NCBI RefSeq assembly: GCF_002209355.2
Contig: NZ_CP106855.1
Span: 2,666,001 to 2,730,000, forward strand
Reading direction: 5' to 3'
Length of the DNA: 64,000 nucleotides
Source: Bdellovibrio sp. SKB1291214
Lineage (GTDB): Bacteria; Bdellovibrionota; Bdellovibrionia; Bdellovibrionales; Bdellovibrionaceae
Shown here: piece after piece, positions 1 through 63,329 of the stretch
How the letters are laid out: every line of letters starts with the position of its first letter
How positions within the stretch are numbered: position 1 is the stretch's first letter
Program-made: the position numbers and the translations under genes
The notes under the pieces: model-generated
Told to the model about the DNA's origin: nothing
Database searches by the model: none
Seen by the model: only the letters and a program-made list of their open reading frames with translations

Positions 1-1268
1 GAAACCGCCTCGATTTGCGTCAGGCGTAGTAATTTTGGGTTTCTGTGAATGGAAGCCTCTATGGCATCTGCAACGATTTCCCAACGGATGAAGGGCTCAA
101 AGCTTTGTCCCAAGTTCGTGGATTTGTAAGAACCCACAAACCACTGACCTTTAGGATGAATGTAAACCGGGTAGTTTTGCTTTCCGAATTGAGGAATCTG
201 TTTCCAAGTTAGGCCGTCCTCCGTCGTGTAAATACCTTCGGCAGAGACAATCCCCCGCACCGAGGATTTGTTTTCAAAAGCGATCGAGTAAATTTCTCGC
301 TTCATCAATTCATCCGTCGTAATTGTGTTTTTGTCAGCGACGGGAGTTATTTCATGGGAAACCGAATTGCGCTTCCACCAAACTTCGCCATGACCATCCA
401 CTTTGCTTAATGCCCAGATGTTGGCTTCAGGCTTTGTGATTTCCACCCTTGAAAGCAATTGGGGGCCGCCCGGTGTTGCGCGAATGACCACTCCGCGAGT
501 GCTACTGGTGACGTAACCTAAAGATCGTTGCAAAGGGATTTGCGCACGTTGCGCGGAAACCAAGTATTCTCCATTTCGATGAGTAATGGGAATCCATTTA
601 TTATCAACGAAAGCCAAATTTGAAAAGTCCGCACGGGAAGCAAAGTGATTCACATCTACAAAGCCCACCATGTTGTTAAAGGAAATTTTCATAAAGCCTT
701 TTTCAAAACCTAAAGGCTGAACACGGCTTAAGCGGGGAACTGTGGTAATCACTTTTGCAAAACTATGAGCTTCACCACGTAAATACGTATCCATGATGTT
801 CACAAAAACGCCGACATCATCGTGGCGATTTTTTAGCATTGATAGTGGAACCCATCCGGTAACTTTGTCTTTGTAAGTTCGAACGCGCGCCCAGTAATCA
901 TCAGTTTCTAAAATCTCAACCGTCGCACCTGCATTTAAAACTTTAATGGCTCCGGAATCATTGCGATTCAACGACAAAAGCTGGCAGGCAGAGTTGGTAT
1001 CAACTAGTTTTGCAACTTGGATATCTTTCAGAATTTGTTTGGCTTCGAGTTCGTATTCTCGACGATCCCATCGAACACGGTAAGTGCTTTCGATTTGCGT
1101 GGAAATGAGTCTGCTTTCCAGAATCGTTCGACTCGCCTGGCCAGAGGAGAAAGGACTCTCTTTTGTTCGGTAAAATGAAATGGCCGCACTCGCATCGGTC
1201 GCTAAAGCCGCGTAAGCAGAAGAGGCTGCAAAAAAAATAGGAAGAACGGACAAAATTATCGAGTGCAT
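1..1268 (-). CDS. Secreted SH3-like/BNR-repeat protein, 3' end outside window
   Basis: The frame is open from an ATG at 1268 to the window edge (at least 422 codons), so the C-terminus is missing. The N-terminus reads as a signal peptide: a hydrophobic run, then SSAYA, cleaving near residue 20. Around residues 95-120 there is a bacterial SH3-like stretch (NAGATVEIL, then DDYWARVR, then GWVPLSML). The later part carries BNR/Ycf48-like strand pieces such as YTTEDGLTWKQIP and STNLGQSFEPF, which suggest a beta-propeller. A role in binding cell wall or surface ligands is inference from these folds. No enzymatic motif is visible. The gene is divergent from the acyl-CoA cluster across a 241-bp gap. 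Confidence 0.7.
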   Translation of the reverse strand, partial: MHSIILSVLPIFFAASSAYAALATDASAAISFYRTKESPFSSGQASRTILESRLISTQIESTYRVRWDRREYELEAKQILKDIQVAKLVDTNSACQLLSLNRNDSGAIKVLNAGATVEILETDDYWARVRTYKDKVTGWVPLSMLKNRHDDVGVFVNIMDTYLRGEAHSFAKVITTVPRLSRVQPLGFEKGFMKISFNNMVGFVDVNHFASRADFSNLAFVDNKWIPITHRNGEYLVSAQRAQIPLQRSLGYVTSSTRGVVIRATPGGPQLLSRVEITKPEANIWALSKVDGHGEVWWKRNSVSHEITPVADKNTITTDELMKREIYSIAFENKSSVRGIVSAEGIYTTEDGLTWKQIPQFGKQNYPVYIHPKGQWFVGSYKSTNLGQSFEPFIRWEIVADAIEASIHRNPKLLRLTQIEAV

Positions 1269-1509
1269 TCCTTATTGTGCTGCTCCATGGAGTCTCCTCT
1301 CAAGACCAGAACTTTTGACCCCAGGTCTAAAGTAAAGTACCTAAAAATGGCAGGAATTGTTGAAAATAGTCCATCTGACTTCGTTGTCGGAACTTTCCCT
1401 CTTGGGGCTTACGTAAAGTAACGCCTCACTGCGGAAATGTCTCCCTGCCTTGCACCTGGACCATTTTGAACAATTCAGTTTTACGAAGGATTTTAACACG
1501 GAGTGGTAT

Positions 1510-2370
1510 ATGGATATCAAATTGATCGGTATTGTGGGCGCGGGACAAATGGGGAACGGGATTGCTCAAGTGGCAGCAAACTTCGGTTTCAACGTCGTCA
1601 TGATGGACGTGAGCGGCGCTTCTCTTGAAAAAGGTATGGCGACAATTTCTGGTAGTTGTGATCGCTTGATCAAAAAGGCGACAATGACTGAAGCAGATAA
1701 AGCGGCCCTATTGGGTCGTATCAAGACAACTCAAGAAACTGCAGGCCTTAAAGATTGCGATATCGTGATTGAAGCTGCGACAGAAAACATTGATCTTAAG
1801 CTTAAAATTTTCAAAGACTTAGACAACACAGTTAAACAAGGTGCTTTACTGGTTTCCAACACGTCTTCAATCTCAATCACTAAAATCGCGGCTGTAACAA
1901 AGCGTCCTGACAAAGTGGCTGGTATGCACTTCATGAATCCAGTTCCTTTGATGAAACTTGTTGAAGGCATTCGTGGTTTACAAACTTCGGATGAAACTTT
2001 CAAAACAGTGAAAGCTTTGGCAGAAAAAATGGATAAAGTTTTCGTCGAAAGCGTGAAAGACATGCCAGGCTTTATCGTAAACCGCATCTTAATGCCAATG
2101 ATCAATGAAGCTGTTTACACTTTGCATGAAGGTATCGCTTCCGTGGAAAGCATCGACTCCGCTATGAAGTTGGGTACTAACCAACCTATGGGGCCTTTGA
2201 CATTGGCAGACTTTATCGGTCTGGACACATGCCTGGCGATCATGAACGTTCTTCATGAGGGTCTGGGTGATTCTAAATACCGCCCATGTCCACTTCTTGT
2301 GAAATACGTTGAAGCAGGTTGGATGGGTCGTAAATCGGGTCGTGGTTTCTACGACTACTCTCAAAAATAG
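1510..2370 (+). CDS. 3-hydroxybutyryl-CoA dehydrogenase (NAD-dependent)
   Basis: This enzyme oxidises 3-hydroxyacyl-CoA to 3-ketoacyl-CoA, or the reverse, with NAD(H) in the cytoplasm. The product is 286 aa, the usual length for short-chain HBDH. A Rossmann motif GAGQMG sits at residues 10-15. The catalytic His is His140 in the [13 protein letters not shown] block, followed by the conserved [11 protein letters not shown] helix. The start is set at 1510 because homologues begin close to the Rossmann strand and a GGAG lies just upstream. The frame also stays open to 1450, but that extension looks non-coding. Only 12 nt separate it from the crotonase gene, so the two are probably co-transcribed, with IcmF next. 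Confidence 0.93.
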
Positions 2371-2382
2371 GATTTAAATACT

Positions 2383-3183
2383 ATGGCAGGTTTTAGTTAT
2401 AAAACACTTCTTCTAGAGCAAAAAGCAAATGGCGTTTGGTTGTTAACGATCAACCGTCCGGAAGCTTTGAATGCTTTGAATTCCACCGTTCTTGAGGAAA
2501 TGGGCGAAGCTCTTCGTCAAATCGGCGAAATGCCGTATGTTGATGCAAGAGCACTTGTAATCACGGGTTCTGGCGAAAAAGCTTTCGTTGCTGGTGCTGA
2601 CATCAAAGAGATCAACGCCTTGGATGAAGAAAAAGGCATGATCTTCGCACAACGTGGTCAATCCGTTTTTCACGAACTCACTCTTTTAAAAATTCCTGTG
2701 ATCGCAGCCGTTAATGGATTTGCCTTGGGCGGCGGTTTGGAGTTGGCTCTGGGGTGCGATTTTATTTATGCGTCTGAAAATGCGAAATTCGGTTTGCCAG
2801 AAGTGAGCCTTGGATTGATCCCAGGTTTCGGCGGCACTGTTCGAATGGCTCGTGCTATCGGTCAACGGAAAGCACGTGAACTGACTTACACAGGCAACAT
2901 GATCACAGCTCCAGAAGCTTTATCGTACGGCCTTGTGAACAAAGTGGTTCCCCAAGCTGAGTTGATGGCAACGGTCATGAAAACTGTTGAAGCCATCTTG
3001 TCTAAAGCTCCGATTGCAGTTGGTATGGCGAAACGCTCGATCAACCAAGGCTGGGATTTGGATGTTGAAGAAGCGATGAAAAACGAAGCAGGAATCTTCG
3101 CCGAACTTTTCAACACAGAAGACGTTAAAGAAGGCACGGGTGCCTTTATCGAAAAACGGAAAGCAGCTTTTAAAGGGCAATAG
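2383..3183 (+). CDS. Enoyl-CoA hydratase/isomerase (crotonase family)
   Basis: A 266-aa crotonase-fold protein expected to hydrate trans-2-enoyl-CoA (crotonyl-CoA) to 3-hydroxyacyl-CoA. Oxyanion-hole segments AFVAGADIKEI and NGFALGGGLELALGCD are present. The two acidic residues used by true hydratases are both there, Glu120 (GGGLELAL) and Glu140 (LPEVSLGLIPG), with the usual 20-residue spacing. This favours hydratase over isomerase or decarboxylase activity. It follows the dehydrogenase gene by 12 nt with AGGA upstream of the ATG, and the two products catalyse consecutive steps. A GC-rich hairpin separates it from icmF. Confidence 0.92.
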   Translation: MAGFSYKTLLLEQKANGVWLLTINRPEALNALNSTVLEEMGEALRQIGEMPYVDARALVITGSGEKAFVAGADIKEINALDEEKGMIFAQRGQSVFHELTLLKIPVIAAVNGFALGGGLELALGCDFIYASENAKFGLPEVSLGLIPGFGGTVRMARAIGQRKARELTYTGNMITAPEALSYGLVNKVVPQAELMATVMKTVEAILSKAPIAVGMAKRSINQGWDLDVEEAMKNEAGIFAELFNTEDVKEGTGAFIEKRKAAFKGQ

Positions 3184-3191
3184 CTTTTCTC

Positions 3192-3210
3192 ACTCCGGCT
3201 CCGCCGGAGT
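3192..3210. other. Intercistronic GC-rich hairpin
   Basis: A perfect 8-bp inverted repeat (ACTCCGGC / GCCGGAGT) with a 3-nt loop lies between the crotonase and icmF stop/start. There is no T-tract, so it is more likely an RNA-stability or attenuation hairpin than a full terminator. A shorter CCGGC/GCCGG hairpin occurs upstream of the Sco gene at 28018-28032. Confidence 0.6.
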
Positions 3211-3260
3211 CGTTCTTATCGGCGGGGTGAAAATCCTTGCTGATGTTACATAAGGTTTTT

Positions 3261-6200
3261 ATGGCATACACTCCAAAGCATCCAGTTAGAATTGTCACGG
3301 CCGCAGCATTGTTCGACGGTCACGACGCCAGCATCAATATCATGCGCCGTATTTTACAAGATATGGGAGCAGAGGTCATCCATTTGGGCCACAACCGTTC
3401 CGTCAGCGATGTGGTGAAAGCCGTTTTGCAAGAAGGGGCGCAAGGCGTGTGCATCAGCTCTTATCAGGGCGGTCACATGGAATACTTCAAATACATGCGT
3501 GATCTTTTGAACGAAGCAGGGGCGGGCTACGTACAAATCTATGGCGGTGGCGGCGGAGTTATCGTTTACGACGAAAAGAAAGAACTTGAAGCCTATGGTA
3601 TTTCCCAAATCTTCCATCCAGACGACGGTCGTCGTTTAGGTCTGGAAGGCATGATCGAGATGATCGTAAAAGGTTGCGACTTCGATCTTTTAGAAAAACA
3701 AAAAGAGTTTAAAACTAAAAAGAACATCTTTTCAGGGGACACGGTTCCATCTGTAGAGCTTGGCGTTGCATTAACCGCTATTGAAAACGGCAGCAAAGAT
3801 GTTTCTTTGTCTTCTTATGGTCTTGATTCATTCAAGGCTAAGCAAGCTCCGTTGGTTTTGGGTATCACAGGTACGGGTGGTGCCGGTAAGTCGTCTTTGA
3901 TCGACGAATTGGTTCAACGTTACTTGAATGCTTATCCTGATAAAAAAATCGCGGTTGTCTGCGTGGACCCATCGAAACGTAAAACCGGCGGTTCCTTGTT
4001 AGGTGACCGTATTCGTATGAACTCTTTGTCTCGCACAAAGGTTTTCATGCGTTCTGTGGCTTCGCGTGGGTCAGGCCGTGAGATCGCATCAAGCCTCCCG
4101 GAAATCTTGAAATTCGTTCGTCAACTTGATTTTGATTTCATCATCGCTGAAACCTCCGGTATCGGTCAGGGCAATATGGCGATCACTGAAGTTTCCGACA
4201 TTTCTATGTACGTAATGACTTCTGATTTCGGTGCTCAGTCGCAGTTGGAAAAAATCGACATGATCGACTTTGCGGATTTGATTGCCGTGAATAAAGCCGA
4301 CCGTCGTGGTGCTTTGGATGCTCTTCGTGATGTGTCTAAGCAATATAGACGCTCTCGCAAGATTTTCGATAATTCCGTCGAGGTCCCGGTTTATTTAACT
4401 CAAGCGTCTCAATTCAATGATGGCGGCGTTAATAAATTATTCTTTAGAATCGCTGACGTTTTAGAAGAAAAACAACCGGGTCGCTGGTTGGTGGATCCTG
4501 CGTTCCGCGCAAACATTTTGTCTGCAGAGGAACACGGAATCATTTCAGCAGATCGTCAAAGCTATTTGGCAGAAATCGTATCCACGGTTCAAAAATACAA
4601 AAAACGCACAGAAGCTTTGGCGGAAGAGGCTTCTAAACTTGGCAGTCTTCAAAAGCTGGCTCCGATGCTTGGAACTTCTGCTGAAACAGTTCAGAAAGTT
4701 CAAGCGCAGCTTGAGTCTGAATTCACAGCCGAAGAATTAGATTCTTTAAAAAACTTTGATAAGTTGATCGAACGTTACTCTGGTGACGAACTTGTATTCC
4801 AAGTTCGTGACAAAGAACTTCGTCAAACTTTAACCCGTGAATCTTTAAGCGGAACTAAAATCCGCCGCGTGGTCGTTCCTAAAATGAAGGACTGGGGTGA
4901 TAGATTCCGTTACTTGAAACTTGAAAACGTTCCTGGTGAATTTCCATTCACAGGGGGAGTATTCCCACTAAAACGCGCGGATGAAGATCCTAAGCGTATG
5001 TTCGCAGGTGAAGGCACTCCAGAAAGAACAAACCGTCGTTTCCATTACCTGACTAAAGGTGAAACGGCTCATCGTCTGTCGACGGCCTTTGACTCTGTGA
5101 CTTTGTACGGACAAGATCCTGATCAACGCCCGGATATTTTTGGTAAAGTCGGGGAGTCCGGTGTCAGTATCTGTACATTGAATGATATGAAAAAGCTTTT
5201 TGCAGGCTTTGATCTTATCAATCCAAATACTTCAGTTTCTATGACGATTAACGGTCCAGCACCAATGATTTTGGCCTTCTATTTTAATACTGCGATTGAT
5301 CAGCAAGTTGAAAAGAAGGAAAAGGAACTGGGTCGCAAGGTCTCTCCTGAAGAATACAACGACATCGCTCTTTGGACGCTTCAACAAGTGCGCGGCACAG
5401 TTCAAGCGGATATCTTGAAGGAAGACCAAGGGCAAAACACGTGTATTTTCTCGATCAACTTTGCTTTGAAGATGATGGGGGATATTGCGGAATACTTTGT
5501 GAAGCAAAAAATCCGTAACTTCTATTCTGTTTCCATCTCCGGTTATCACATCGCAGAGGCGGGTGCGAATCCGATCTCTCAACTGGCGTTTACTCTTTCA
5601 AACGGTTTCACGTTCGTTGAGTACTACTTGTCCCGTGGTTTGAAGGTTGATGACTTTGCGCCGAACTTGTCGTTCTTTTTCTCAAACGGTCTAGATCCTG
5701 AATACTCCGTATTGGGCCGCGTGGCTCGTCGTATTTGGGCGGTGGCGATGCGCGACCTGTACAAGGCGAATGATCGCTCTCAAAAATTGAAATACCACAT
5801 CCAAACATCAGGTCGTTCACTGCATGCTCAAGAAATTGACTTCAATGACATCCGTACAACGTTGCAGGCGTTGCTTGCGATCTATGATAACTGCAACAGC
5901 TTGCATACGAACGCCTACGATGAAGCGATCACGACCCCGACCGAGGAATCTGTTCGTCGTGCAATGGCCATCCAAATGATCATCAACCGCGAGTTCGGTA
6001 TGACCATGAATGAAAACCCAATGCAGGGATCTTATTTCATGGATGAGTTGACGGACTTGGTTGAGGAAGCGGTTCTAAATGAATTCAAAAAGATCAGCGA
6101 GCGCGGCGGCGTGTTGGGGGCGATGGAAACTCAATACCAACGCTCTAAGATTCAAGAGGAATCATTGTACTATGAGCGCTTAAAACATGATGGCACATTG

Positions 6201-40913: not shown

Positions 40914-41531
40914 ATGTCCTTGTTTGAAGCTTTGAAAGATCAAAATCAGCTTTTCATCCGTCAGCGTAAGGAGTTGGCTGAGTTGATCGGCTTTGAAACT
41001 CGCAACAAATACGAAATCCGCAACCAAAAGGGCGAAGTGGTGGGGTTTTGCGCCGAACAACAAAAGGGGTTTTTAGGACTGTTAGTGCGGCAGTTCTTGG
41101 GGCATTGGAGAAGTTTTGAACTGCACTTTTTTAACAATGAACGCCAGCAAGTTTTTACGGTTAAACATCCCTTTCGGCTCTTCTTTCAGCGCTTAGAAGT
41201 CCATGCGAGCGGTGGTCAATATATAGGGGCGCTTCAGCAGCGATTCGGAATTGTGAAAAAGAAATTCGATATCGAGAACGCTCAGGGCCGAGTGATCATG
41301 AATATGCAGTCCGGTTTCCTGCAGTTTTGGACCTTCCCTATATTAAAGAACAACAGGGAGGCGGCCGTTATTAGAAAAAAGTGGTCAGGTCTTTTAAAAG
41401 AAGCTTTTTTGGATGCTGACAACTTCCAGTTAGAGTTCGGGCAGACGGAGTTGGATGAAAATGAAAAGAGTTTGATCCTGGCTTCTGCCATTTTTATTGA
41501 TTTGCAGTATTTTGAACGAAAAGCAGATTGA
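40914..41531 (+). CDS. Phospholipid scramblase/LURP-one-related (tubby-like) protein
   Basis: 205 aa with no signal peptide. It has the scramblase-family pattern: repeated beta-strand pairs with polar turns (YEIRNQKGEVVGFCAEQ, FELHFFNNERQQVFTVKHPFRLFFQ, VKKKFDIENAQGRVIMNM). It is a twelve-stranded barrel in solved relatives. The closing helix of the family is present in outline (EKSLILASAIFIDLQYFE). Lipid binding is the best general prediction; true scrambling is unproven for bacterial members. GGGGAG lies upstream of the ATG. Confidence 0.8.
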   Translation: MSLFEALKDQNQLFIRQRKELAELIGFETRNKYEIRNQKGEVVGFCAEQQKGFLGLLVRQFLGHWRSFELHFFNNERQQVFTVKHPFRLFFQRLEVHASGGQYIGALQQRFGIVKKKFDIENAQGRVIMNMQSGFLQFWTFPILKNNREAAVIRKKWSGLLKEAFLDADNFQLEFGQTELDENEKSLILASAIFIDLQYFERKAD

Positions 41532-41570: not shown

Positions 41571-41592
41571 AGGACAAAGGAAACTTTGTCCT
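41571..41592. repeat. 9-bp inverted repeat after the scramblase gene
   Basis: AGGACAAAG and CTTTGTCCT flank GAAA, followed by a second partial TTGGACA...TGTCCAA arrangement to 41622. There is no T-tract. It may be an RNA-stability hairpin. Confidence 0.55.
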
Positions 41593-41742
41593 GACTAAAC
41601 TTGGACAAAGTTGGGTCTGTCCAAAAATCACAAGAACCCCTTTGATTTAAAATTTACTTCTATCGCGAAAAGATGGAAACCCCATCTCGTCCGAACGATT
41701 TAAGTTTTAAAAACGAAAACAATTTTAACAAAGGGAATTATA

Positions 41743-42213
41743 ATGAACAAATTCGTAGCAATGATCGCTCTTTTGGTTTCTTCTTCTGCATTCGCAGCTA
41801 ACTACACTGCTGACACTTCTTGGGAAGTTCTTGAAAAAGACCCAACAATCAAAATCGAAGCTGGCACAGTATTCATGGGTTCTGCTATCGACTACACTTT
41901 CGTATGCGTAGACGGTGCTAACCTTCGCACTAAAAAACCAGTAGCTCAATACGATGTTATCACTATCGGTGACAACTACCGTAAAGAAGTTTACAAAGGT
42001 TCTAAATACTTGACTACTCCAATCAACTACACTCGCACTGCTTGGGAATGCGACTGGAACGTAAACGGTAAACACCGCACTTGCGCTGACAAAGTTGTTT
42101 CTGGAACTTACGCTCTAACTGTAGAAGCTAAAGTTTCTAAAGTTCTTACTACTAAAAACGGTTACGAAAAGTTCTTGTTCACAAAACAATTGAACGTTCC
42201 AAACTGCCAGTAA
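41743..42213 (+). CDS. Small secreted four-cysteine protein, copy A
   Basis: 156 aa with a signal peptide (LLVSSSAFA-ANYT). It is clearly paralogous to the protein at 62853: both share TSWE-L/SSWEEIL, an MGxAIDYTFVCxDG block, LRTxxPV, TPINY, a central Cys-x(8-9)-Cys pair, a GTYxxTV strand and a final LFTK...VPxC. Four cysteines are conserved, suggesting two disulfides in a small beta-rich exported domain. Codon use is strongly biased towards one codon per residue, as in highly expressed genes. AAAGGGAATT precedes the ATG. No known family is recognised. Confidence 0.85.
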   Translation: MNKFVAMIALLVSSSAFAANYTADTSWEVLEKDPTIKIEAGTVFMGSAIDYTFVCVDGANLRTKKPVAQYDVITIGDNYRKEVYKGSKYLTTPINYTRTAWECDWNVNGKHRTCADKVVSGTYALTVEAKVSKVLTTKNGYEKFLFTKQLNVPNCQ

Positions 42214-42237: not shown

Positions 42238-42270
42238 GGGGCTTGACACCAAGCCCCATTGTCTTTTGTC
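42238..42270 (+). terminator. Terminator after four-cysteine protein A
   Basis: A perfect stem GGGGCTTG / CAAGCCCC with an ACAC loop, followed by a T-rich tail with interruptions. Confidence 0.75.
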
Positions 42271-42325: not shown

Positions 42326-43114
42326 ATGGAGATCTTAGAAACCACACTAGCAGCTGAAGTAAGCACTATTCAGGATCAAGTATCCTTGGATATCGAAGCT
42401 TACCTTTCGCGTTTTAAGGACCCTAAAAAGGGCCTTAACATGTTGGCTACTAAGTCTCAGATCCACGTAAAGACGTTGAATCGTTTGCGAGAGAAATCTC
42501 ACAACCCGAATTACACAACGCTTTATAAGCTTTATTCCTGCCTATTAGACGCCAGAGATCTTAATCATCTTGTTGAAAAAGCACCAAAACTGGTTCGTGA
42601 AAAGCTGGAAAAAACGGATCCGCAGCTTAAATCTTCGCCTCTACATCGTTTTAGTTTCGACGTGGAAGCTGATTTACAAAAGGACCCGTGTTTCACAGAA
42701 CTCTATGTCCTGGCTGAAACACGTCCCTTTGACCAAAGCTTCGTGCAACAGAGATTCGGTTCATACGGTCTCGGGGTGCTCGAACGCATGGTAGACCTTA
42801 AAGTTCTCCGACCCCTCGGGAATGGACTTTATGGTCAAGGTGAGGTGAGAGCACCATTTTCTTCGGCAACCATTAAAGCCGTCGGATTAAGACTCACAGA
42901 GCGATTTTTGAAGCCGGAAAATTCCGACGTTAACTTCGCAAACTTGATGAATGTTTACTTCGAATCAATCAGCGAGGAAACATATCGTGAGTGGATTTTG
43001 ATTGAAGAGCGCGCCTTCAAAGAGCGTGTGAAGCTTTTGGAAAAACCGGAAGCTAAAGGAAATATTCCTGTATTTGCGTTTACAGCGATCGATACGCTGT
43101 TGGAGAAAGAATAA
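42326..43114 (+). CDS. XRE-like/TIGR02147-like helix-turn-helix regulator
   Basis: 262 aa without signal peptide. Residues 38-75 (LATKSQIHVKTLNRLREKSHNPNY...) fit a Cro/C1-type helix-turn-helix: ala-rich first helix, S-x-I-x-x-x-T-L-x-R-L recognition helix, then the P-N/S-x-x-T-L-x-K-L continuation. The C-terminal 180 residues are alpha-helical with a winged-helix-like stretch (FGSYGLGVLERMVDLKVLRPLGNGLYG). Overall size resembles the TIGR02147 paralogous regulators, but this is tentative. GAAGGGGAG precedes ATG 42326. Its TAA shares a base with the ATG of the next gene, so the pair is coupled. Confidence 0.7.
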   Translation: MEILETTLAAEVSTIQDQVSLDIEAYLSRFKDPKKGLNMLATKSQIHVKTLNRLREKSHNPNYTTLYKLYSCLLDARDLNHLVEKAPKLVREKLEKTDPQLKSSPLHRFSFDVEADLQKDPCFTELYVLAETRPFDQSFVQQRFGSYGLGVLERMVDLKVLRPLGNGLYGQGEVRAPFSSATIKAVGLRLTERFLKPENSDVNFANLMNVYFESISEETYREWILIEERAFKERVKLLEKPEAKGNIPVFAFTAIDTLLEKE

Positions 43115-43242
43115 TGAAATTATTTATCGCACTACTTATTGGTTCTATTTTAGTTATTGGCGCAGGCCAAAGTGCACATGCTGGTGGCGGATCGTCCGGT
43201 GGGTCTGGCAATCAACCTCCACACGGCAACAAAGACAGATAA
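43114..43242 (+). CDS. 42-residue secreted Gly-rich peptide coupled to the regulator
   Basis: The reading frame begins within the regulator stop (TAATG). Its first 22-24 residues form a textbook signal peptide (FIALLIGSILVIGAGQSAHA) and the mature part is about 19 residues, glycine/serine-rich with a positively charged tail (GGGSSGGSGN...GNKDR). A strong terminator lies 31 bp after the stop. The one-base overlap and intact signal peptide argue for a real product. An exported pheromone or a substrate of the regulator is possible but unproven. Confidence 0.7.
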   Translation: MKLFIALLIGSILVIGAGQSAHAGGGSSGGSGNQPPHGNKDR

Positions 43243-43273: not shown

Positions 43274-43306
43274 AAACCCAGGCTGTTTTAGTCTGGGTTT
43301 TTTATT
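43274..43306 (+). terminator. Terminator of the regulator/peptide operon
   Basis: Stem AAACCCAG / CTGGGTTT with an 11-nt loop, continued by T residues. Confidence 0.85.
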
Positions 43307-43413: not shown

Positions 43414-43746
43414 ATGAAATCATTAGTTTCCGTTTTTGCTATACTGCTTTTGGTTGAATCTGGTTTCGCTGCAGAGGCGACGCAAAACAAAGCCAAAGTC
43501 GCAGACGATCAGGCAATGTCCGAACAGCACGAGACTGACATGACTCGTATGATTCGTCGTAAGATCATGGACGATAAATCCTTATCGATGAATGCTCACA
43601 ACATCAAAATCATCACTGAAAACAACCAGGTTGTTTTGCGTGGTGTGGTTGAAAACGATTCCGAAAGATCCAAAGTCGAAAAGATTGCGAAATCCGTCGC
43701 AAAAAATACTTCAGTCATCAACAACACGACTATCGAAAAGAAATAG
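43414..43746 (+). CDS. BON-domain periplasmic protein
   Basis: 110 aa with a signal peptide (LLVESGFA-AEAT). The BON domain occupies about residues 45-108: TRMIRRKIMDDKSLSMNAHNIKI, then NQVVLRGVVENDSERSKVEKIAKS, then the last strand VINNTTIEK. BON domains bind phospholipid or peptidoglycan and appear in osmotic-stress proteins such as OsmY. GGGAGG lies 7 bases before the ATG. The next gene starts 9 bp after the stop, so they are co-transcribed. Confidence 0.9.
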   Translation: MKSLVSVFAILLLVESGFAAEATQNKAKVADDQAMSEQHETDMTRMIRRKIMDDKSLSMNAHNIKIITENNQVVLRGVVENDSERSKVEKIAKSVAKNTSVINNTTIEKK

Positions 43747-43755
43747 GAGGTTTCC

Positions 43756-44319
43756 ATGGGTAAAAAAGGCGACAAAGTGGTATTCGGTATTTTTAAATCA
43801 AGAAGCGATCTTGAAAGCTGTGTAGAAAACTTAAAGATGGAAAGCTTCCGTAATGAAGACATCTCGGTCTTGATGCCTTCTAAAGGCGATACTCAAACAT
43901 TTGCTCACCAAAAAGACACAAAAGCTCCAGAAGGCGCCACAGCTGGCGGTGGTGCTGGTGCATTGTTAGGTGGTGCCTTGGGTTGGCTTGTCGGCGCCGG
44001 TATGATTGCTACGATTCCTGCTTTGGGTCCGTTGGTAGCAGCCGGTCCTATCATGAGTGCGCTAGCGGGCGCTGGTGTTGGTGGTGCTGTCGGTGGTCTG
44101 GTGGGCGCGTTGGTTGGAATGGGCATTCCCGAGTACGAAGCCAAACGCTATGAAGCCATGGTCAAAGACGGCGGTATGCTGTTGTCTGTTCACGTGGATG
44201 ACAGTGAGTGGAGTGATAAAGCGAAAGAAATTCTTCGCAGAAACGGTGCGATGGATATCTCATCCAGCTCCGAAGTCGGTCCTTCACGCACAGACATGGA
44301 TCACGAAATCCGTCCTTAA
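43756..44319 (+). CDS. General-stress-type protein with central glycine-zipper membrane segments
   Basis: 187 aa. The N-terminal 60 residues form a small alpha/beta unit (VVFGIFKSRSDLESCVENLK, FRNEDISVLMP) like the YflT/GSP17M domain. A long Gly/Ala-rich pair of hydrophobic helices (residues 60-125) follows, then a C-terminal ferredoxin-like unit (GGMLLSVHVDDSEWSDKAKEIL). This layout is seen in stress-induced membrane-associated proteins of unknown activity, often encoded near BON proteins. AGGAGG precedes the ATG. Confidence 0.8.
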   Translation: MGKKGDKVVFGIFKSRSDLESCVENLKMESFRNEDISVLMPSKGDTQTFAHQKDTKAPEGATAGGGAGALLGGALGWLVGAGMIATIPALGPLVAAGPIMSALAGAGVGGAVGGLVGALVGMGIPEYEAKRYEAMVKDGGMLLSVHVDDSEWSDKAKEILRRNGAMDISSSSEVGPSRTDMDHEIRP

Positions 44320-62852: not shown

Positions 62853-63329
62853 ATGAAACAAATATTAATGTCCGTGTTCGCTCTACTTATCGCGCAATCT
62901 GCGTCAGCAATGATCACTCAGAATTCATCTTGGGAAGAAATTTTAGCAGCAAAGGGTCCCTATGTTCTTCACTCTCCTGTGATTTACATGGGCCGAGCCA
63001 TCGATTATACATTCGTGTGTCGTGATGGTGGAATGCTTCGTACCCAGGCTCCGGTTGATATCGTTTATGCGATTCAAGAGGGCGCCGGTAAAACTGTCTT
63101 TCAAACCGTTGGCAGAGAAGTCCTTTCTACACCCATCAACTATGTTCAGAAGGAGGATTTCTGTGACACTGGTTCAAATCGCACGGTTTGCAAACCAGTT
63201 ACCTACACTGGCACATACCCTATGACGGTAAATATTCAGATTGGACGTCGTTTGAACAACGGCTTAGAAGTCTACTTGTTCACGAAGTCCTACACAGTTC
63301 CGACTTGTGAAAATGTCGTGGCCGATTAG
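62853..63329 (+). CDS. Small secreted four-cysteine protein, copy B
   Basis: 158 aa with a signal peptide (LLIAQSASA-MIT). It is paralogous to the protein at 41743. Shared elements in order are SSWEEIL, YMGRAIDYTFVCRDG, LRTQAPV, STPINY, FCDTGSNRTVC, TGTYPMTVN and YLFTKSYTVPTC. The four cysteines align. It is a single gene with AAAGGAG upstream of the ATG. Codon use is less biased than in copy A, which suggests lower expression. No known family is recognised. Confidence 0.85.
   Translation: MKQILMSVFALLIAQSASAMITQNSSWEEILAAKGPYVLHSPVIYMGRAIDYTFVCRDGGMLRTQAPVDIVYAIQEGAGKTVFQTVGREVLSTPINYVQKEDFCDTGSNRTVCKPVTYTGTYPMTVNIQIGRRLNNGLEVYLFTKSYTVPTCENVVAD

Follow-up and report, generated by a model that had tools for sequence, protein, structure and literature searches.

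Gene pairs composed of an XRE-type regulator gene and a neighboring small gene with an export signal are known from the RRNPP and ComRS systems of Firmicutes, in which the mature peptide is re-imported and bound by the regulator, and the RRNPP receptors contain TPR repeats. Regulators of another family, TIGR02147 (Fsuc_second; DUF4423-type), consist of an N-terminal HTH, a middle winged helix, and C-terminal helices, and often directly precede an exported ORF. This family is uncharacterized (the literature searched gave no mention of TIGR02147 and a single one of DUF4423), yet it has 9 to 43 matches per genome in the 12 Bdellovibrio-group genomes that we sampled. In Bdellovibrio itself, the hit locus (Bd0108/Bd0109) was described as an exported-protein locus tied to growth-mode signaling (PMC3818213), and we name it here as a lead. 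A literature search for published Bdellovibrio peptide signals found none matching the locus reported below. To our knowledge, the hit locus has no overlapping regulator gene of the present kind.

We analyzed a 64,000-nucleotide stretch of DNA from Bdellovibrio sp. SKB1291214 (hereafter, the window), in which the initial annotation had noticed a regulator gene whose stop codon overlaps the start of a short ORF for an exported peptide. On re-reading, the coordinates, the TAATG overlap, and the translation of the 42-residue ORF were exact; the regulator stop TAA occupies 43112-43114, the peptide ATG starts from 43114, and base 43114 is common to both. The translation begins with the signal-peptide-like MKLFIALLIGSILVIGAGQSAHA and continues with the mature part GGGSSGGSGNQPPHGNKDR. 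The signal peptide, which precedes approximately 19 residues rich in glycine, was judged by eye and with a simple rule. The GGAG located 8 bases 5' of the peptide ATG is a plausible ribosome-binding site, and a similar GGAG or GAG was found before the peptide start in homologous loci. Hairpins comparable to the terminator at 43274-43300 were also visible in three of these loci (L002-L004). At E 1, Pfam and NCBIfam returned nothing for either the regulator or the micropeptide. The observation turned out to be stronger than initially stated and the unit larger, as it also includes an exported protein, here called c0, and a tandem operator upstream (Table 1).

Table 1. Positions of the regulator-peptide cassette features in the window.
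Feature	Position	Strand	Description
Operator half A, palindrome GGACA-N10-TGTCC	41572..41591	.	Exact match; position upstream of c0 conserved
Operator half B, second palindrome GGACA-N10-TGTCC	41603..41622	.	31 bp from the first
c0, exported all-beta protein (by prediction) of ~156 residues; four Cys are invariant	41743..42213	+	Precedes the regulator at all 15 loci
Terminator-like hairpin with a weak T run, separating c0 from the regulator	42238..42257	+	Terminator scan
Regulator	42326..43114	+	262 aa; XRE-type HTH followed by a winged helix and C-terminal helices; distantly related to TIGR02147/DUF4423
Likely ribosome-binding site (GGAG) for the peptide	43102..43105	+	Within the regulator gene; sequence
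Exported glycine-rich micropeptide (predicted)	43114..43242	+	42 aa; signal peptide about 23, mature part about 19
Intrinsic terminator, end of the regulator-peptide operon	43274..43300	+	Terminator scan

Among 66 genomes of the family, 13 contained homologues of the regulator, 15 in total and from 3 of 20 genera. Behind every one of the 15 comes an exported ORF, which either overlaps the regulator stop or lies almost next to it. The overlap is mostly ATGA, with TAATG in the close relatives of the window. In 13 loci, the coupled ORF encodes 39-49 residues with a glycine-rich mature part, and M1, G24-G26, and G29-G30 were invariant in an alignment of 12 micropeptides. In the remaining two (L013 and L015), it encodes 163 and 165 residues, comprising a signal peptide, the same glycine-rich start, and a c0-like folded domain. 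Thus, the proposal that a signal-peptide ORF of 30-60 codons follows each homologous regulator held for 13 of 15, a longer exported protein that shares the glycine-rich start took its place in the other two, and no homologue lacked a following exported ORF. On these counts, we regard the regulator-peptide coupling as real. When a profile of the peptide was searched against 141 genomes of the order, 13 strong matches (E 6e-13 or better) were obtained, all directly behind a regulator homologue. Weaker matches elsewhere (E 4e-5 and worse; 11 loci read) were mostly longer exported proteins with glycine-rich starts, and only two of the 11 (L105 and L109) lay beside a regulator resembling TIGR02147 by eye. 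The micropeptide dN/dS was 0.12-0.24 with mostly synonymous substitutions, which indicates that the short peptide is under purifying selection, and constraint on the glycine-rich mature part exceeded that on the signal peptide in the two larger clades. A chance ORF was ruled out by the conservation and the dN/dS values.

More distant homologues of the regulator are coupled to exported proteins of 102-177 residues. Six such regulators (L043-L047 and L053) also precede exported ORFs with glycine-rich starts, and in L043 and L047 a signal peptide, a glycine-rich start, and a c0-like domain stand in the place of the peptide; at the stop of still more remote regulators (L048-L050 and L054-L057), no such exported ORF was found. 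The c0-like domains in L013 and L015, and in the more distant L043 and L047, bear on the origin of the micropeptide, which is probably a shortened remnant of, or related to, a c0-like exported protein; the folded domain may instead have been gained in the outliers, and not lost in the clade of the window. In L047 (G109, 977-1935), the regulator homologue is open over only 145 residues and has no N-terminal half, and it is still followed by the exported c0-like ORF.

The third gene, c0, was present even in L022, where an antisense ORF masked it in the ORF calls. A hairpin-like G + C-rich repeat between c0 and the regulator was visible in most of the aligned homologous loci. Beyond the cassette, the loci fall into two groups with different surroundings; therefore, it is the cassette and not its neighborhood that is conserved. 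In the window, the gene directly upstream of the cassette (40914-41531) encodes a protein that matches Pfam Scramblase strongly (E 9.6e-43). Directly downstream of the terminator, 43414-44319 encodes a BON-domain exported protein and, behind it, a glycine-rich membrane protein whose match to ActD barely exceeds the cut-off. No Pfam or NCBIfam match was obtained for c0. Its structure model is all-beta (pLDDT 83). Nothing in the PDB resembled this model convincingly (best values, E 0.5 with Foldseek and Z 2.3 with VIA-align), and sequence searches of the PDB with c0 and the regulator likewise gave no convincing match. In three of four clades, c0 showed less synonymous divergence than the regulator (0.34 vs 0.69, 0.44 vs 0.68, and 0.41 vs 0.71), which suggests that c0 is codon-biased and highly expressed. 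Paralogues of c0 exist elsewhere, including an exported protein of the four-cysteine type at 62853-63329 in the window, which has no regulator or tandem operator beside it.

The two palindromes upstream of c0 can also be written in a longer form, with arms GGACAAA and TTTGTCC separated by 6 bases; a spacer of 7 between the same arms gave chance matches only. Even with up to 3 mismatches allowed, the 3.68 Mb genome contains a single copy of the tandem site. In the upstream regions of c0 from the 15 loci, 49 half-sites were counted against 4.8 expected, with a maximum of 14 in 1000 shuffles. We searched the 66 family genomes for the tandem operator with a spacer of 11 or 12 and 2 mismatches or fewer, and found it in 10 of the 13 regulator-bearing genomes, in each case immediately upstream of c0. 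All 53 genomes without the regulator were negative. Allowing 3 mismatches added G025, which has the regulator, and G058 and G060, which lack it. G014 and G034 contain the regulator, and no canonical tandem operator is clear in them. At the c0 paralogue loci examined, all of which are without the regulator, we saw no such palindromes. From this distribution we infer, by a rather short step, that the tandem operator is bound by this very regulator; binding by an unrelated genome-wide regulator is unlikely, because the operator co-occurs with the regulator.

The regulator is predicted to bind DNA through its HTH. In its structure model (pLDDT 72), an XRE-type HTH (residues 11-107) is followed by a winged helix of helices and a beta hairpin (105-200) and approximately 60 further residues. 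Residues 11-107 are predicted to fold like DdrO and lambda repressor (Z of about 7), and Foldseek gave a probability above 0.9 for several XRE domains. Pfam names no HTH in the regulator of the window, and weak HTH_3 matches appeared in 3 of 14 homologues; no TPR family was among the Pfam matches up to E 10 in any of the 14. The curated TIGR02147 model likewise gave no match at E up to 10 for these 14 sequences, and the curated NCBIfam cut-off was not reached. By hhalign, however, a 25-sequence profile including distant homologues gave an alignment of 211 columns with TIGR02147 regulators (probability 95.7, E 1e-8), against 0.3 for a reversed control and only 27 for a 15-sequence profile. Because the curated model is not reached, these profile comparisons identify the regulator as a distant relative of TIGR02147/DUF4423 and not as a member. 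The two share their three-part architecture and the frequent position directly before an exported ORF, whereas the coupled product of the present cassette is much smaller and the cassette has a dedicated tandem operator of its own.

The layout had initially been likened to RRNPP-type pairs. An XRE-type HTH regulator with an adjacent gene for an exported propeptide was indeed found (13/15 loci), and the coupling of a cytoplasmic regulator to a tiny exported product was upheld, but the comparison fails at the regulator, which has a winged helix in the position of the TPR repeats; RRNPP membership was thus ruled out with the moderate certainty that a model of pLDDT 72 affords. In addition, unlike RRNPP/ComRS, the cassette is not from Firmicutes and has homologous loci encoding larger exported proteins.

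We also surveyed the TIGR02147 genes themselves, of which there are 20 in the genome of the window and none were found in 14 control genomes. With a heuristic signal rule, and with orthologues counted separately among the 81 loci, which were the best of the matches listed, an exported ORF lay within 30 bp behind 44 of 81 sampled TIGR02147 members, compared with 10 of 171 neighboring ORFs (Fisher 1.7e-17). Of the 44 coupled proteins, 33 carry an NGG or glycine-rich motif shortly behind the signal, compared with 2 of 104 non-coupled exported controls, using a pattern that was widened after a first count of 25 of 44. Four more of the 44 are lipoproteins with a GNPLV-like motif. In several NGG proteins that we read, a motif containing HE recalls zinc peptidases; no Pfam family exceeded the cut-off.

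We favor the reading that the locus is a self-contained Bdellovibrio-group cassette whose regulator controls c0 via the tandem operator and is accompanied by a co-translated exported peptide, and we consider this reading as a whole reasonably probable. The sequence comparisons show the gene order, the coupling, the purifying selection acting on the peptide, and the operator with its co-occurrence with the regulator. The regulator would bind the two tandem palindromes in front of c0 and thereby switch this exported, probably abundant protein, either activating or repressing it. The regulator mRNA would also encode, by translational coupling, the very small exported glycine-rich peptide, which would probably share a process with c0 at a site beyond the cytoplasm, either the envelope or the cell exterior. 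A simpler explanation is that the peptide is an ordinary surface, adhesive, or antibacterial product carried on the regulator mRNA with no feedback, as exported ORFs behind TIGR02147 regulators are common and most of those are far larger than a signal peptide. However, the strict linkage and overlap with one regulator type in all 15 loci exceed what co-expression needs, and we find this explanation fairly unlikely. The peptide might also report on export itself: the fresh precursor, with its signal peptide and glycine motif, would meet the regulator in the cytoplasm until exported, so that the regulator reads export capacity. The reduction of the partner to a signal peptide and a strongly constrained glycine-rich motif, the motif shared by the diverse exported partners of related TIGR02147 regulators, and a gene overlap that would give matched synthesis all agree with such a sensor. 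Nevertheless, the interaction of regulator and precursor is hypothetical, the NGG motif may belong to the own fold of the TIGR02147-coupled proteins, and its likeness to GGGSAGGSGN is loose; we judge an export sensor to be unlikely.

Peptide signaling is possible in principle, given that the regulator and exported-peptide genes are adjacent and conserved together and that the mature peptide is constrained; in this case the mature peptide would be released, re-enter the cytoplasm, and bind the regulator in an RRNPP/ComRS-like manner without membership. We consider such a pheromone quite improbable, because the regulator has no TPR receptor domain and because coupled products of 102-177 residues fit poorly with a small imported pheromone. 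Moreover, pheromones often diversify along with their receptors, whereas the glycine-rich mature peptide is nearly the same in many species. A short hydrophobic ORF overlapping a regulator gene might finally be a membrane toxin of a toxin-antitoxin-like pair or a non-coding leader element. This seems highly improbable in view of the conserved signal-peptide layout, the conserved mature glycine motif, and a dN/dS well below 1, and the peptide leads no further gene because the terminator comes next.

The cassette is real, conserved, and apparently undescribed in the literature searched. It offers a small testable case, in which a regulator and a predicted operator with one target in the genome are joined by an exported target protein and an exported partner of 42 residues, and would allow one to ask directly what TIGR02147-type regulators sense. 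More broadly, TIGR02147/DUF4423-type regulators and their coupled exported proteins might form a general export-reporting system in Bdellovibrionota, of which the cassette would be the minimal form, a regulator whose partner is cut to a signal peptide and glycine motif and which reports to a dedicated promoter; we hold this generalization to be doubtful. In L158-L213 and others, coupling of TIGR02147 regulators to exported proteins with the NGG motif was widespread, and several of these proteins have the HE-type peptidase-like motif and no Pfam family. In L125 (G048, 1124-3498), a c0-like exported protein is followed by a TIGR02147 regulator, and the next gene, which overlaps, encodes an exported protein that has a glycine-rich start and contains HELGHQ; this is the three-gene order of the cassette with a bona fide TIGR02147 member.
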